DNA of 62,843 bases from Ectothiorhodospiraceae bacterium. Its GTDB lineage: Bacteria; Pseudomonadota; Gammaproteobacteria; Nitrococcales; Aquisalimonadaceae. Shown piece after piece: positions 34,445 through 39,972 of the stretch. Under the pieces are notes generated by a model. It had not been told where the DNA came from. It worked only from the letters and a program-made list of their open reading frames with translations, and did not search any database. Location: contig SLCE01000084.1 of NCBI GenBank assembly GCA_007125985.1, forward strand, positions 1-62,843, read 5' to 3'. The translations under genes and the position numbers were made by a program. Position 1 is the first letter of the stretch. Each line of letters begins with the position of its first letter.

Positions 34445-35362
34445 TTGACGAAGGGCCTGTACCCGATTCGGACCATTTCAGCGATGACCGGCGTGAACCC
34501 GGTGACCTTGCGTGCCTGGGAGCGCCGTTACGGCTTGATTCAGCCGCAGCGCACCCCCAAAGGTCACCGTCTTTACACGGAACAGGACCTGGAGCGGATC
34601 CAGCAGATTCTGATGCTGTTGGAGCGGGGCATTCCCATCAGCCAGGCGAAATCGGTGCTGGAAGGGCGCGAGGCCGGTATTGAGGAAACCTCCAGCCCAG
34701 ACGTGGCCACCCACTCCGGCTGGCATGCACTGCGTCGCGAATGGGAAGCGGCCCTGCGCTCGGCGGATGATCACCGTCTGGAACAGGCCCATGCGTCGGC
34801 ATTGGGTCTGTTTCCTGCCGACTGCGTGCTCCGCGAGCTGGCACTGCCGCTGCTGGACGAACTTCAGCAGGCCGAGGCCGACAACGCTGCTGCGGCGTTC
34901 CAGTTCCGTTTCCTGCGCAGCTTTCTGCGTAACAAGCTTGCGGCGCGCCTGCACCACCAGGGTGCTTATGCCAGCGGACCGCGGCTGCTGCTAGCCGCGC
35001 CCATCGGCAGCTGTGACGACCTGCCCTTGCTACTCCTGGCCACAGCAGCCCAGCGTCACGGCTACCGCTGTGTATTACTGGGTGGCGATGTGCCCCTCCA
35101 CGCCCTCAAGCACGCAATGGACGCGGGCAGTTGCACCGGGCTGGTGCTGACCGGCAGCACCGCGACACCGCCCGACGGGTTGATGCAACACCTGGAGGCC
35201 GCGGAACTCCCCGTGTTCCTGCTGGACGGCGCCGCCAGCTGGGCGGACCATGGCGGCGCACAGCACTTCATCCCGGTTCCGCGCGTGGATGCTGCTCTGG
35301 ATATCATTGGCCGCAGCATCCCCCCCATGTCCGGAGGCATGCCCCTGCAGGGGTTTGCATGA
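34445..35362 (+). CDS. MerR family regulator with B12-binding-like C-terminal domain
   Basis: The 305-residue protein has an N-terminal MerR winged helix (YPIRTISAMTGVNPVTLRAWERRYG, 6-30) and a helical middle. The C-terminal Rossmann-like domain (about 180-290) resembles the cobalamin-binding domain of the light regulators CarH and LitR. The usual ExHxxG cobalamin motif is replaced by GSCDDLP (188-194), with Asp at the histidine position. The start is TTG with AGGGAG nine bases upstream; later ATGs would break the DNA-binding domain. Its stop overlaps the photolyase start (ATGA), so it probably regulates the photolyase gene. Confidence 0.85.
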   Translation: MTKGLYPIRTISAMTGVNPVTLRAWERRYGLIQPQRTPKGHRLYTEQDLERIQQILMLLERGIPISQAKSVLEGREAGIEETSSPDVATHSGWHALRREWEAALRSADDHRLEQAHASALGLFPADCVLRELALPLLDELQQAEADNAAAAFQFRFLRSFLRNKLAARLHHQGAYASGPRLLLAAPIGSCDDLPLLLLATAAQRHGYRCVLLGGDVPLHALKHAMDAGSCTGLVLTGSTATPPDGLMQHLEAAELPVFLLDGAASWADHGGAQHFIPVPRVDAALDIIGRSIPPMSGGMPLQGFA

Positions 35363-36789
35363 CCGGCCCGAGTATCGTCTGGCTCCGTCGGGATCTTCGC
35401 CTGCGGGACAATCCGGCCCTGTATCGGGCCGCAGCCCTGGGGCCGGTGCTCCCTGTCTACATCCACGCGCCCGAGGAAGAGGGAAATCACGCTACCGGTG
35501 CTGCCGGCGCCTGGTGGCTTCACTGTGCGCTGCGGGAACTGCAGCAAGAGCTGAAGGCCTGTTCATCCCGCCTGCTCATCCTCCGCGGCGAGGACAGCCT
35601 GGCGGTGCTGCGCCGGCTCATTCGTGACACCGACGCAGCAGCGGTGTTGTGGAACCGGCGTTACGAGCCGGCCGGCATCCAGGTGGACCGCAGGGTCAAG
35701 GCTGCCCTGCGGGAAGATGGGATTCGCGCCGAGAGCTTTCCCGGCAACCTGCTCCGGGAGCCCTGGGAGGTGCAACGCAAGGATGGCGGCAGCTTCCGCG
35801 CCTTTACCCCATTCTGGCGTGCCAGTCACCGCCTGCCACCACCCGCGACACCGTTACCAGCACCGCAGCTTGAGCCGCCTGCGCACTGGCCCGACAGCCT
35901 GGAACCCGATGAGCTGGAACTGCTGCCACGCATACCCTGGTATCGCGGCTTCGAATCCTGTTGGCAGCCCGGTGAGCAAGGCGCCAACACCGCACTGGAC
36001 ATCTTTGTGCGGAACCAGCTGTCCGGCTATGCCGGACACCGTGACCTGCCCGGCACGCCGGGCACCTCCCGGCTGTCGCCACACCTGCACTTCGGCGAAC
36101 TCAGCCCGCGTCAGGTCTGGGCGGCAGTTCATGCCTCCCGGCAATACGATAGCGACAGTGCCACCACGTTTCTCTCCGAACTCGGCTGGCGGGAGTTCGC
36201 CCACCACCTCCTGTACTACCACCCGCAGATGCCGGATACGCCCCTGGACCGACGCTTCGAGGAGTTCCCCTGGGCCGAGGAACAGGAAGGTCCGCTGCAG
36301 ACCTGGCAACAGGGTCAGACCGGCATCCCCATCGTCGATGCAGGGATGCGGGAACTGTGGCATACGGGCTGGATGCACAACCGCGTCCGGATGATCGTCG
36401 GATCACTGCTGACCAAGAACCTGCGCATCCCCTGGCAGCGTGGCGAGCGCTGGTTCCGTGACACACTGGTGGACGCCGACCTGGCCAGCAACAGCATGGG
36501 CTGGCAATGGGTACAGGGGTGCGGCGCCGACGCGGCGCCCTACTTCCGCATTTTCAACCCGGTTCGCCAGGGCGAACGTTTCGACCCGGACGGCACGTAT
36601 GTGCGCCGCTGGGTACCGGAGCTGGCGCGCCTGCCCACCGGAAACCTGCATGCCCCCTGGGATGCTTCTGTATGCACCCTGCGGAAAGCGGGCGTTACAC
36701 TAGGGGAGACATACCCGGAACCGCTGGTGGATCTTGGCACATCGCGCAAGGCCGCGCTGGACGCCTACCAGACCATCCGGAACGGCTGA
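35359..36789 (+). CDS. phrB: Deoxyribodipyrimidine photolyase
   Basis: This 476-residue flavoprotein repairs cyclobutane pyrimidine dimers using blue light. The N-terminal photolyase domain (WLRRDLRLRDNPAL) binds an antenna chromophore. The C-terminal FAD domain has LSPHLHFGELSPRQVW, TGIPIVDAGMRELWHTGWMHNRVRM and NSMGWQWVQGCGADAAPYFRIFNP, typical of class I CPD photolyases. The start overlaps the MerR-type gene. A cryptochrome-like role is less likely given the conserved repair motifs. Coupling to a CarH/LitR-like regulator suggests light- or stress-dependent expression (inference). Confidence 0.93.
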   Translation: MTGPSIVWLRRDLRLRDNPALYRAAALGPVLPVYIHAPEEEGNHATGAAGAWWLHCALRELQQELKACSSRLLILRGEDSLAVLRRLIRDTDAAAVLWNRRYEPAGIQVDRRVKAALREDGIRAESFPGNLLREPWEVQRKDGGSFRAFTPFWRASHRLPPPATPLPAPQLEPPAHWPDSLEPDELELLPRIPWYRGFESCWQPGEQGANTALDIFVRNQLSGYAGHRDLPGTPGTSRLSPHLHFGELSPRQVWAAVHASRQYDSDSATTFLSELGWREFAHHLLYYHPQMPDTPLDRRFEEFPWAEEQEGPLQTWQQGQTGIPIVDAGMRELWHTGWMHNRVRMIVGSLLTKNLRIPWQRGERWFRDTLVDADLASNSMGWQWVQGCGADAAPYFRIFNPVRQGERFDPDGTYVRRWVPELARLPTGNLHAPWDASVCTLRKAGVTLGETYPEPLVDLGTSRKAALDAYQTIRNG

Positions 36790-36813
36790 AAATAATACCC
36801 ACCGGGGTATAAT
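36786..36813 (+). promoter_or_regulatory. sulP promoter with CsoR-type palindromic operator
   Basis: TATAAT (36808-36813) is a perfect -10 box, and CTGAAA (36786-36791) is a fair -35 at 16-base spacing. The 16-base palindrome ATACCCACCGGGGTAT (36795-36810) fills the spacer and overlaps the first half of the -10. It matches 12 of 16 positions with a palindrome in the promoter of the nearby CsoR-family gene and resembles known CsoR/CstR operators (ATACCCC-AGGGGTAT type). Confidence 0.7.
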
Positions 36814-36868
36814 GCGGTTCATTGGACGACCCGTCGTCGGCCCTTGTCGGGCCGGTGCAGGAGCATGC

Positions 36869-38626
36869 ATGGCCTCACCTCGACTGAAGCAATGGTTCAC
36901 CATCCTGGAGTGGTTGCCCAACGCCCGCGGGCGGCAACTGCAGGACGATCTGCTGGCAGGCGTCATCACGGCGCTGCTGCTGGTGCCGCAGGGCATGGCC
37001 CTGGCCCTGCTGGCGGGCCTGCCCCCTGTCGTCGGGCTGTATGCGGGGATACTCCCACCCCTAGTGTATGCCATCTTTGGCACCAGCCGGACGCTGGCGG
37101 TGGGCCCGGTGTCCGTGGCCGCGCTCCTGGTGGCGAATGCACTGGGTGGCCTGGGCGCGGAACCCGGCAGCACCGAATGGCTGCACGGGGCCGTGCAACT
37201 GGCCGCGATGTCCGCCGCCCTGTTGCTGATCATGGGGTTGCTGCGTCTGGGTGAGCTGGCCAACTTCCTGAGTCACCCCGTGCTGTCCGGCTTCACCAGC
37301 GGCGCCGCGGTGGTGATCATCGTCAGTCAGCTGCCGCAGCTCACCGGCATCCCGCTCCCCGGAGACGCGAACCTGCTGACCCAGCTGTATACGCTGATCA
37401 TCGGCATACCGCAGCTTAGTCTTGGACCAGTGCTGTTCGGCGGTGGTTCGCTCGCCCTGCTGTGGCTGGCGCGCCATTCCCTGGTGCGCTGGCTGGCGCG
37501 GATGGGCATATCACCCCGCCTGGCGCTGGTGGCCAGCCGCGCCGCCCCGCTGGTGATCGTGCTGGGCGCCACCGGCGTCTCGGCACTCGGTGGGCATGGC
37601 CTGCCCGGTCTGAGCCTGGTTGGAGACATACCCCGCGGTCTGCCCATGCCCTCGCTGGGCTTCCTTGGCGGTGATGGCTGGCGCGAGTTGTTGCCGGCGG
37701 CGCTGGTCATCAGCCTGGTGGGCTATGTGGAGAGCGTCTCCGTGGCCCGGGTGCTGGCATGGCGTCGCCGGGAGCGGGTGGACCCGAACCAGGAGTTGAT
37801 CGCTCTGGGCGCCGCCAACGCCGGGGCAGCACTAACCGGCACGATGCCGGTGGCTGGCGGATTCGCCCGCTCCATGGTCAACTTCGAGGCAGGCGCCCGC
37901 ACACAGTTGGCGGGCGTCATCACCGCAGTACTGGTCGCACTGGCGGCGCTGTTATTCACCCCCGTGTTCCGCTATCTGCCGCTGGCTGTGCTGGCAGCAG
38001 TGATTATCGTCGCGGTCATTCCGCTGATCGATGTGCATGCACTGAAGGCCGCCTGGCGCTTTGACAAGGCCGACGGCACCGCATTGGGGGTGACGTTCCT
38101 GGGCGTCGTGCTGGTGGATATCGAGCTGGGGCTGGTCTTCGGATTGGCGGTATCTCTCGGCGTCTTCCTGTGGCGTACCGGTCATCCGCATGCTGCGGTC
38201 GTGGGCCGGGTTCCTGGTACGGAGCACTTCCGCAATGTGGACCGGCACAACGTGGAGACCTGGCCTCATCTGCTCCTGTTGCGTGTGGATGAGAGCCTGT
38301 ATTTCGCCAACACGGCCATTCTTGAGCAGGCGGTGGCGGCGCGGGTGGCTGAACAACCGGAGCTACGCCATGTGGTGCTCGTGTGCAGTGCGGTCAACCG
38401 GATTGACTTCAGCGCGCTGGAGACACTGGAACAGCTGGCGGACAACCTGTCGCGCAGCGGTATCACGCTCCATCTGGCCGAGGTAAAGGGTCCGGTGATG
38501 GACCGTCTGCGTGGATCCGGCCTGCTGGACGCCATGGGCGGTGGCCGGATTTTCCTTAGCAGCGAGGAGGCCGTGGAGTATCTGGGCACCCGGGTACCGC
38601 CTAAACCGGAGAGTACCGGCGACTGA
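36869..38626 (+). CDS. SulP family anion transporter with STAS domain
   Basis: The 585-residue inner membrane protein has about 12-14 transmembrane segments starting at DDLLAGVITALLLVPQGMALALLAGLPPVVGLYAG, split here into shorter recognisable blocks. SISYVES-like and PVAGGFARSMVNFEAGARTQ motifs follow, and a cytoplasmic STAS domain (about 450-560) closes the protein. SulP proteins carry sulfate, bicarbonate or dicarboxylates. GGAG precedes the ATG at 36869. The promoter contains an operator-like palindrome shared with the adjacent CsoR-family gene, which suggests thiol- or metal-linked control. Confidence 0.9.
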   Translation: MASPRLKQWFTILEWLPNARGRQLQDDLLAGVITALLLVPQGMALALLAGLPPVVGLYAGILPPLVYAIFGTSRTLAVGPVSVAALLVANALGGLGAEPGSTEWLHGAVQLAAMSAALLLIMGLLRLGELANFLSHPVLSGFTSGAAVVIIVSQLPQLTGIPLPGDANLLTQLYTLIIGIPQLSLGPVLFGGGSLALLWLARHSLVRWLARMGISPRLALVASRAAPLVIVLGATGVSALGGHGLPGLSLVGDIPRGLPMPSLGFLGGDGWRELLPAALVISLVGYVESVSVARVLAWRRRERVDPNQELIALGAANAGAALTGTMPVAGGFARSMVNFEAGARTQLAGVITAVLVALAALLFTPVFRYLPLAVLAAVIIVAVIPLIDVHALKAAWRFDKADGTALGVTFLGVVLVDIELGLVFGLAVSLGVFLWRTGHPHAAVVGRVPGTEHFRNVDRHNVETWPHLLLLRVDESLYFANTAILEQAVAARVAEQPELRHVVLVCSAVNRIDFSALETLEQLADNLSRSGITLHLAEVKGPVMDRLRGSGLLDAMGGGRIFLSSEEAVEYLGTRVPPKPESTGD

Positions 38627-38641
38627 GCGACCAGCCGTGAC

Positions 38642-38938
38642 TCAGCCGTACTTGGTCAGCAACCGCGTCAGCTCCTCCAGCTTGTCACGCGCCGCCTCAG
38701 GTAGTTCACCCCCGGGCATATCCCGCTCGATGGCGCACGCGAGCATTTCGTAGAACGCCTTATCCAGCGCCTTGCGTGAGGCAGACAATTGCTGGGCTAC
38801 ATCCTCACAGGGGCGCTGCGCCTCTATCATGCGGCGGATGGCGCGCAGTTGACCCTCCGCGCGGGCCAGGCGCGCCACCAGCGCGCGGCGTCGCGGATCC
38901 AGTTCCGGAAGCACGTCGGTATCGGTTGCGGCGGACAT
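38642..38938 (-). CDS. CsoR/RcnR/FrmR-family (DUF156) repressor
   Basis: The 98-residue all-helical protein contains the family core RLARAEGQLRAIRRMIE, then PCEDVAQQLSASRKALDKA. Cys44 corresponds to the first conserved cysteine of CsoR, CstR and FrmR. The position of the usual second ligand, His60 in FrmR, is Ala69 here, with Cys68 beside it, and no nearby His is present. A thiol-only site would fit a persulfide or electrophile sensor better than a Cu(I) or Ni(II) sensor (inference). The ATG at 38938 has GAGAG upstream. It is convergent with sulP. Confidence 0.87.
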   Translation of the reverse strand: MSAATDTDVLPELDPRRRALVARLARAEGQLRAIRRMIEAQRPCEDVAQQLSASRKALDKAFYEMLACAIERDMPGGELPEAARDKLEELTRLLTKYG

Positions 38939-39022
38939 GGGACTCTCTCGATTGAAGCTTAACGTCTGTATAATCGGCGCCTTGCGGTACTTTCGACGCC
39001 TGTTTTTGTACCGTTCACTTAA

Positions 39023-39049
39023 ATCATACTCCACAGGGTATGTTTTCAA
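39023..39049 (-). promoter_or_regulatory. Promoter and palindromic operator of the CsoR-family gene
   Basis: On the minus strand TTGAAA (39049-39044) and TATGAT (39028-39023) form -35 and -10 boxes with a short 15-base spacer. The palindrome CATACTCCACAGGGTATG (39025-39042) fills the spacer and overlaps the -10, the same geometry as at sulP. Autoregulation is the simplest reading. On the plus strand the site lies in the purC leader. Confidence 0.65.
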
Positions 39050-39075
39050 CAGCCCATCGTCAGCCGAGCCGTTCC

Positions 39076-39972
39076 ATGACCCAGACGCCCAGCGCCCTGT
39101 ACGAATCCAGCCTGAAATCCCTGTCGTTGATCCAGCGCGGCAAGGTGCGGGACATCTACGAAGTGGACGCGCAGCATTTGCTGATCGTGACCACCGACCG
39201 GCTGTCCGCCTTTGATGTGATCCTGCCGGACCCCATACCCGGCAAGGGCGCGGTGCTGACGGCGGTTTCCTGCTTCTGGTTCCACCGCCTTGCGAACATC
39301 ATTCCGAACCATTTGGCAGACATGCCGCTGGAACAGGCGGTGCCCGATGCCGATGACCGCGCCCAGGTGGCCGGACGCGCGGTGGTGGTCAAACGCCTGC
39401 AGCCACTGCCGGTGGAGGCCATCGCCCGCGGCTATCTGATCGGCTCCGGATGGAAGGATTACCAGCAGACCGGCTCGGTCTGCGGCATCAGCCTGCCGGA
39501 AGGCCTGCGTCAGGCCGACCGCCTGCCTGAGCCCATTTACACCCCGTCCACCAAGGCCGCCGTGGGCGATCACGACGAAAACGTGAGCTTCGAGCAGACG
39601 GTGGACTTGCTGGGGCAGGACCGGGCGGAACAGGTCAGGGAGGTGACACTGACGCTGTATCGCGAGGCAGCGGCTTACGCCCTGGAACGCGGCATCATGA
39701 TTGCTGACACGAAATTCGAGTTCGGCCTGGATGCAAACGGTGCGCTAGTGCTCATCGATGAGGCGCTGACACCGGATTCATCCCGTTTCTGGCCGGCCGA
39801 CCAATACCAGCCAGGCATGTCGCCGCCCAGTTTCGACAAGCAGTTCGTACGTGATTACCTGGAAACACTGGACTGGGACAAGACCCCGCCCGGCCCCCGG
39901 TTGCCGGAGGCAATCCTTCAGAAAACCGCCCAGAAATATCAGGAGGCCCAGCGACGCCTGCTGGGCAACTGA
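39076..39972 (+). CDS. purC: SAICAR synthetase (phosphoribosylaminoimidazole-succinocarboxamide synthase)
   Basis: This cytosolic ATP-dependent enzyme joins CAIR and aspartate in purine synthesis. The 298-residue product is of the longer form and has [58 protein letters not shown] and [16 protein letters not shown] box at 38969-38974 could serve it. The ATG at 39076 is preferred because an in-frame ATG at 39040 lies inside the palindrome of the neighbouring repressor gene and adds non-conserved residues. Confidence 0.94.

Follow-up and report, generated by a model that had tools for sequence, protein, structure and literature searches.

Members of the CsoR/RcnR family that carry the ligand histidine bind Cu(I), Ni(II) or Co(II). 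Operators of the copper-sensing CsoRs have been published as TAC-X9-GTA (PMC3902906). In Streptomyces coelicolor, ScCsoR is described as a sulfane-sulfur sensor with a persulfide dioxygenase target; its Cys37 is persulfidated, Cys66 is needed, and its site, ATACCn6GGTAT, has the ATAC-N8-GTAT (N8) geometry (PMC7533328). Little is known of how sulfur oxidation is controlled at the level of transcription; a CsoR-like sox regulator described from Thermus in 2023 was termed the first link by its authors (PMC10318464). Published systems are described here after six sources (PMC10318464, PMC9918477, PMC9774590, PMC9405070, PMC3902906, PMC7533328).

The window, by which we mean the whole stretch of 62,843 bases that was analysed, contains a csoR-like gene with the following features:

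38642..38938, minus strand: csoR-like repressor gene, 98 amino acids, ATG start
38807..38809, minus strand: codon of Cys44, the family's first ligand cysteine, at the start of helix 2
38735..38737, minus strand: codon of Cys68, one residue ahead of the family ligand His position
38732..38734, minus strand: codon of Ala69, which sits at the family ligand His position in the alignments

The protein matches PF02583 (CsoR/RcnR, DUF156) with 75.4 bits against a curated cut-off of 22.8, and it is the sole PF02583 match in its 3.24-Mb genome. The start codon, giving the N-terminus MSAA, is common to the window and to a relative, L003, whose protein is 84% identical. Alignments to solved structures and labelled references, gap-free between Cys44 and Cys68, pair Ala69 with the ligand His in CsoR, InrS, FrmR and RcnR, and with an Asn in S. 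pneumoniae CstR. They bear out the earlier note, which had taken Cys44 for the conserved first ligand, Ala69 for the occupant of the His position and Cys68 for its immediate predecessor, and had named a His at that site in a structure-based alignment as the finding that would speak against it; the alignments to solved structures put Ala69 there. His+4, the position four residues further on where CsoR and CstR carry their second cysteine, is Asp73. The Cys-His-Cys ligand set of copper CsoRs is thus absent, with Cys44, Ala69 and Asp73 in its place, and the second-position ligand His of RcnR and FrmR is likewise replaced by Ala69. The CstR trait of two cysteines and a ligand position without His is present. 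The spacing of 24 residues, which the note had set against 29 in CstR, is also correct: CstR (C31/C60), TTHA1953 of Thermus (C39/C68) and ScCsoR (C37/C66) all have 29. Of the family's conserved DNA-contact residues, R23, L24 and R26 of the RLxR motif and Q50 are invariant across 65 aligned members. From the alignment and the residue numbering, we take R26 and Q50 to be the equivalents of R57 and Q81 in S. lividans CsoR. The R57A and Q81A variants of that protein are reported to give no ITC profile (PMC3902906).

AlphaFold, run with a 65-row alignment, predicts an all-helical, three-helix protomer as in the CsoR/RcnR family (helices 15-39, 44-72 and 81-97), with a mean pLDDT of 83.8 overall, 95-98 for residues 21-60 and 87 for residues 61-70. 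The first 18 Foldseek matches are all CsoR, CstR, FrmR or InrS chains with a probability of 0.99-1.00, the best E value being 0.006 and none reaching 0.001 or less. Cys44 and Cys68 lie 24 residues apart on a single helix of the model, which at 1.5 A per residue puts them about 36 A from each other, too far for contact inside one chain; on this model an intramolecular disulfide was ruled out. The cysteines of CstR link across protomers (PMC9774590), and by analogy an inter-protomer arrangement of Cys44 and Cys68 is expected here. As Cys68 comes five residues before the second cysteine of CstR, it lies on a different helix face and may or may not point toward Cys44'.

Proteins with these residues form a sizeable group. 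A protein search in 59 genomes (own included) was followed by searches with a profile, A1, built from eight proteins. In 54 genomes of the order this profile gave eight matches of at least 149 bits and nothing else above 45. In overlapping class and phylum samples (369 and 398 genomes) group matches went down to 69 bits and other family members began at 59, and the group threshold, over 65 bits, was placed at this gap. Among the 23 profile-found members Cys44 is kept in 23, Cys68 in 20 and the ligand His in none (three rows missed by the pattern script were read directly); without the eight seeds the counts are 15/15, 12/15 and 0/15. The missing His sets the whole group apart from CsoR, RcnR and FrmR, as the note had said of the single protein. 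Chance loss of His in one gene was ruled out, the pattern of Cys68 without His recurring across many species. Eight of the 23 (L209-L216) were assigned by score and motif; they stand outside the main tree described below and are included in both later trees.

A contig scan with two peptide patterns, one of which includes Cys68, added 58 group loci. Forty-four match the Cys68-containing pattern and 14 the other alone, all 14 keeping Cys68; conservation of this residue in the contig loci is partly by construction, and our conservation figures rest on the 23 profile-found proteins. In the aligned rows the ligand position carries His in 46 of 47 non-group rows, 8 of 9 references and 0 of 66 group rows. 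Cys at His+4 occurs in 0/66 group rows, 0/8 rows added later and 11/11 CstR-pattern rows, which were selected on that Cys. The members are mostly gamma- and betaproteobacterial; L024 comes from an Acidobacteriota MAG. L066, whose contig belongs to a MAG with the title Klebsiella pneumoniae, clusters with Nevskia-type proteins, and that contig is probably mis-binned.

Several members depart from the two-cysteine pattern. Cys68 is replaced by Thr, Asp and Ala in L101, L214 and L216, respectively, and Cys44 by Arg in L058; these four are useful natural single-cysteine variants. L214 and L216 have His at His+4. His at this position is also found in 7 of the 66 group rows, from Rhodanobacter and related loci, where the window protein has Asp. 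These seven (L026, L027, L035, L042, L044, L045 and L057) keep both cysteines and may possess a three-residue site.

A DUF156 family tree marked with ligand positions had been proposed as a check. In the main tree (122 rows, 87 usable columns, ligand columns kept in) the 66 group rows lie on one side of a branch that has support of 99/94 and appears in all of 200 bootstrap trees (100%). The CstR row falls outside the group, and the FrmR and RcnR rows make a clade of their own (100/99). The single clade was not upheld in two later trees, both made after removal of the ligand columns and addition of 8 group rows and 11 CstR-pattern rows; each requires two changes for the group where a single clade would require one. 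In the first, a quick tree of 141 rows, the second change arises because the long row L110 pairs with L215, and 10 CstR-pattern rows are sister of the group. In the second, a careful tree, from which L110, L010, L302, L303 and 14 near-copies were left out, two long rows, S. pneumoniae CstR and L289, are placed within the group. Forcing the group into one clade cost 9.28 log units (AU p 0.351), by which one clade is neither rejected nor shown. Judging by these trees, we are likely dealing with a coherent group near CstR, whose exact kinship to CstR varies between trees.

The genes on either side of csoR in the window are:

36869..38626, plus strand: SulP-family anion permease with STAS domain, a predicted target, convergent with csoR
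39076..39972, plus strand: purC (SAICAR synthetase, PF01259), divergent from csoR

The SulP gene product matches PF00916 (330 bits), PF01740 and TIGR00815 (445 bits, over the cut-off of 380). Directly ahead of it are genes, named by eye, for a MerR-type regulator and a photolyase-like protein (34445-36789), and a relative (L167) shows a comparable order in front of its own SulP. purC is divergent from csoR in several relatives, but probably is not a functional partner of it. As a target, purC is disfavoured: the operator described below is absent beside csoR in L016 and L061, both of which have purC there.

Neighbouring open reading frames of the 58 contig loci were clustered, and one representative per cluster was named by Pfam and NCBIfam. 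Representatives of SoxB, SoxA, SoxX, SoxY, SoxZ, SoxC and DsrE2 exceed equivalog cut-offs, and the TusA, YeeE/YedE-type, Lactamase_B, SLAC1 and OsmC clusters were named by Pfam. The names PDO_Blh and SQRlike are weaker, their representatives matching Lactamase_B and Pyr_redox_2 alone; among proteins related to these clusters, that of L180 matches bifunc_ST_SDO with 555.8 bits, below the cut-off of 625, and that of L169 matches a type III SQR model, also below cut-off. Thirteen core sulfur profiles (sox, YeeE/YedE, DsrE2, TusA, dioxygenase and SQR) were then searched in group and non-group loci. At least one is present in 45 of the 58 group contig loci (mean 12.8 kb), but the profiles were chosen from these very loci, so this figure is not independent, and the fairer one is 8 of the 18 group loci from profile-searched genomes (mean 15.6 kb; 9/18 with SulP). 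These 18 are 17 regions plus the window, and one, L238, lies on the same contig as L051. Non-group loci gave 0/22 (contig loci, 12.2 kb) and 0/20 (gammaproteobacterial loci, 13.7 kb); for 8/18 against 0/20 the Fisher p is 9e-4. The link between the group and sulfur genes is not universal: core sulfur genes are absent in 10 of the 18 profile-searched loci, and 10 of the 58 contig loci still have none when SulP is added to the list. The loci free of sulfur genes include one lineage (L050, L051, L053 and L055) with leucine-biosynthesis-like neighbours, named by eye.

Comparison of the intergenic regions of the window and L003 revealed a common pseudopalindrome, identical in the two, which we regard as the predicted operator. 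It has two occurrences in the window:

39026..39041, no strand assigned: predicted operator ATACTCCACAGGGTAT, between csoR and purC, overlapping the TATGAT -10-like hexamer of csoR
36795..36810, no strand assigned: predicted operator ATACCCACCGGGGTAT, in the SulP promoter, 58 bp ahead of the SulP start

These are the only exact copies of ATAC-N8-GTAT in the 62,843 bases, against 0.07 expected. ATAC-N9-GTAT (N9), which has the spacing of the copper CsoR operator TAC-X9-GTA, has no match in the window. The TATGAT hexamer of csoR, on the minus strand and 15 nt from TTGAAA, was read by eye and was not listed by the promoter scan. The SulP site lies within the sole sigma-70-like match of the region 36700-39100 (CTGAAA-16-TATAAT, 36786-36813) and overlaps its TATAAT; shuffled sequences yield 0.4 such matches in this region, so the SulP promoter call is weak by itself.

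An exact N8 site is located within 400 bp upstream of csoR in 35/58 contig loci and 6/18 profile-searched loci of the group (41/76), where shuffling predicts 0.07 and 0.00, respectively. The 42 non-group loci, FrmR-like proteins included, have N8 upstream in 0 and N9 in 24, which agrees with the published TAC-X9-GTA of copper CsoRs. The remaining 35 of the 76 group loci lack an exact N8 site in that 400-bp stretch, and an N9 site is present in 9 of the 76. A second palindrome, of the N9 type, occurs ahead of csoR in L021, L028, L031, L033, L041, L043, L047, L049, L056 and L068, at a distance of 47-128 bp from the N8 site. The group loci carrying N9, nine or ten depending on how the start is defined, are betaproteobacterial, and their N9 is mostly near a divergent DsrE2 gene.

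The N8/N9 contrast is firm for the 76 group and 42 other loci compared and unproven family-wide. L085 encodes a protein of CstR residue pattern and carries an N8 site 1.7 kb upstream; in its host G798 (a Syntrophomonadaceae MAG of 2.4 Mb) the longer form ATAC-N6-GGGTAT gives 13 strand-matches against 1 for the control, a hint that some CstR-type proteins may also use a 16-bp operator. Relatives of G798 supplied 30 loci, of which 11 show the CstR pattern; N8 sites are present upstream in two loci, L289, the only one of those 11, and L315. N9 was found within 500 bp upstream in none of these 30 loci, 16 of which have the CsoR pattern, so the N9 rule is not confirmed in that set. The inputs to the 16-nt consensus of ScCsoR included sites of Geobacillus CsoR and mycobacterial RicR (PMC7533328), so N8 is less secure as a feature confined to sulfur sensors.

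Scanning the window's own genome with ATAC-N8-GTAT has found matches at 10 places, against 4 for the reversed pattern. Four of the ten precede plausible targets: SulP, csoR, an OsmC-family gene and a DUF302 gene. Sites on contigs C4, C9 and C34 were set aside, lying by eye within or beside genes with no evident sulfur role, and those on C28, C64 and C164 were left out of target inspection. The DUF302 gene (4751-5188 of L135, contig C181) has an N8 site starting 48 bp before its likely start, a position that suggests a possible role of DUF302 in reactive-sulfur handling. The best SQR homologue of this genome (57% identical) has no site even with two mismatches allowed, its dioxygenase-like gene has none upstream and a single one-mismatch match inside the coding stretch, and SoxB is absent from the genome. 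For the window organism the predicted regulon is a small one centred on SulP.

Six relatives gave 44 strand-matches of ATAC-N6-GGGTAT against 10 for the control. Fifteen of the 25 places examined (out of 33) are upstream of genes for SulP, YeeE/YedE, an SQR/SLAC1 pair, a dioxygenase, OsmC or csoR; the other ten have neither a sulfur gene nor csoR downstream. In three genomes (L134, L163 and L176) the predicted targets include OsmC-family genes. In all loci taken together, 51 of 64 sites with the CCC/GGG core have a gene matching a sulfur profile, purC or csoR starting within 450 bp downstream, or 45 of 57 once seven duplicates of the same DNA are removed. Random placement of 60 sites in the annotated loci gave a mean of 7.8 labelled sites and a maximum of 15. 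With csoR and purC dropped from the labels, 39 of 60 sites remain labelled against a random mean of 5.7 and a maximum of 12. Among sites more than 600 bp away from csoR, 22/28 are labelled (18/24 without four duplicates). Rhodanobacter thiooxydans has two matches in its genome, both on the csoR contig, in front of YeeE-type and molybdenum-cofactor genes. L244 has one site just upstream of a dioxygenase-like gene and a second inside the same gene, and in L241 two tandem sites are located ahead of a BLH_phosphatase-type gene. In L164 (relative G002) an N8 site at position 2472 falls on the 5' end of an EamA transporter gene, a possible further target, downstream of which lies a gene for a flavocytochrome c sulfide dehydrogenase flavoprotein.

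Overall, we consider it likely that the window protein is a repressor of the CstR kind acting on sulfane-sulfur genes, its second cysteine standing five residues before that of CstR. The analysis itself gives the predicted fold, the pattern of residues, the group, its gene neighbourhoods and a DNA motif found at promoters; for this protein we infer repression, DNA binding, a tetramer, a sulfane-sulfur effector and the cysteine chemistry. The reduced repressor would bind the predicted 16-bp ATAC-N8-GTAT sites over the -10 elements of csoR and SulP and block transcription, and the OsmC and DUF302 genes elsewhere in the genome probably carry further repressor-bound sites. Sulfane sulfur (persulfides, polysulfides) would react with Cys44, and Cys68 would resolve or stabilise the product, most likely across protomers, because in a single chain some 36 A of one long helix separate the two cysteines. 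The modified tetramer would then leave DNA, permitting expression of transport, oxidation or detoxification genes for reactive sulfur. By analogy, ScCsoR offers the closest precedent for such a mechanism. The note's suggestion of a distinct sensor subgroup recalling CstR has held up well in that the group is wide, forms a clade in the main tree, and has neighbourhoods and predicted regulons pointing to reactive sulfur.

The main rival is a thiol-redox sensor, in which peroxide or disulfide stress would join Cys44 and Cys68 of neighbouring protomers and release DNA, the sulfur genes then responding to general thiol oxidation and not to sulfane sulfur. TTHA1953 lends it some weight, since H2O2 or Cu(II) is reported to lower its DNA affinity, disulfide-linked dimers being formed, and NaHS to have no such effect (PMC10318464). 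The lack of an NaHS effect in this CsoR-like sox regulator speaks against our main reading, though sulfide is not sulfane sulfur. The OsmC-family genes among the predicted targets of three genomes would also suit an oxidant sensor, but most predicted targets would serve to transport or oxidise sulfane sulfur, sulfite or thiosulfate, and the operator has the geometry of the sulfane-sulfur sensor ScCsoR, so we regard the redox reading as unlikely.

Metal sensing appears less probable still, and we would be surprised to see it borne out. Two thiolates can in principle bind Cu(I), so that Cu(I) or Zn(II) might be held between Cys44 and Cys68 of the neighbouring chain, with the residue at His+4 assisting in the 7 of 66 group rows where it is His. 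In the window protein, though, that residue is Asp, the ligand His is missing throughout the group, the operator is N8 and not the TAC-X9-GTA of copper CsoR, and sulfur genes are common as neighbours. A formaldehyde sensor of the FrmR type has hardly any chance of being correct: FrmR also lacks a cysteine at His+4 and its first ligand cysteine is matched by Cys44, but its ligand His is Ala in the window protein, whose MSAA start lacks the N-terminal Pro2 that FrmR uses, the FrmR and RcnR rows form the separate 100/99 clade, and no frmA-like gene is seen by eye among the open reading frames beside csoR in the window. Both metal and formaldehyde sensing are disfavoured by the lack of His, by the operator and by the genes nearby.

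Returning to the CstR-like sulfane-sulfur repressor, a wider proposal can be built on it, which we put forward tentatively and lean slightly against as a whole. According to it, in much of the family 16-bp N8 operators would belong to sulfur sensors and 17-bp N9 operators to metal and formaldehyde types, and the group would be an undescribed gamma- and betaproteobacterial class of sulfane-sulfur sensors, its dithiol site rebuilt with the second cysteine moved from His+4 to His-1, supplying for many sulfur oxidisers the missing repressor of sox, YeeE/YedE, DsrE2-TusA and SQR/dioxygenase operons. The N4 operator of TTHA1953 is an exception to such spacing by sensor class. In a literature search covering titles and abstract starts, and few subscription papers, no His-less CsoR member with cysteines 24 apart was described. 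The group therefore appears undescribed within the literature searched; CsoR-fold sulfur sensors as a general idea are already known.

Among the known systems, CstR (S. aureus; S. pneumoniae, 7mq1-7mq3; B. licheniformis YrkD) shares with the group the PF02583 fold, two cysteines, the lack of a ligand His and a connection with genes for SQR, persulfide dioxygenase and the transport of sulfur or sulfite. Its second cysteine comes 29 residues after the first, at His+4, whereas that of the group comes 24 after, at His-1. CstR lets go of DNA when persulfide or polysulfide forms di-, tri- or tetrasulfides between protomers, a behaviour that the window protein may share. If true, our reading would add a second CsoR-fold dithiol geometry, making persulfide chemistry comparable between two natural arrangements. 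The established hosts of CstR are described as lacking Sox (PMC10318464), while many group members adjoin sox genes.

ScCsoR (SCO0620) resembles the group in its 16-bp site of ATAC-N8-GTAT geometry (PMC7533328), a likeness drawn from published descriptions; it differs in being actinobacterial and in having Cys37 and Cys66, 29 apart. TTHA1953 of Thermus thermophilus is, like the presumed role of the group, a CsoR-like regulator of the Sox pathway acting via two cysteines, but these are Cys39 and Cys68, 29 apart, its regulon is distant from its own gene, and its consensus TACTATACCTTGGTATGGTA has the ATAC-N4-GTAT geometry against N8 in the group (PMC10318464). If our reading is true, the link between CsoR and sox would reach into many gamma- and betaproteobacteria and come with a defined operator and with target genes open to testing.

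CsoR, RcnR, InrS and FrmR have in common with the group the fold, the first cysteine, the RLxR motif and the invariant Gln. The group differs from them in the missing ligand His, in its sulfur gene neighbours and in its operator, which falls one base short of the TAC-X9-GTA found for copper CsoR; should this one-base difference prove general, proteins at present labelled metal-sensing could be annotated by a simple rule read from sequence.
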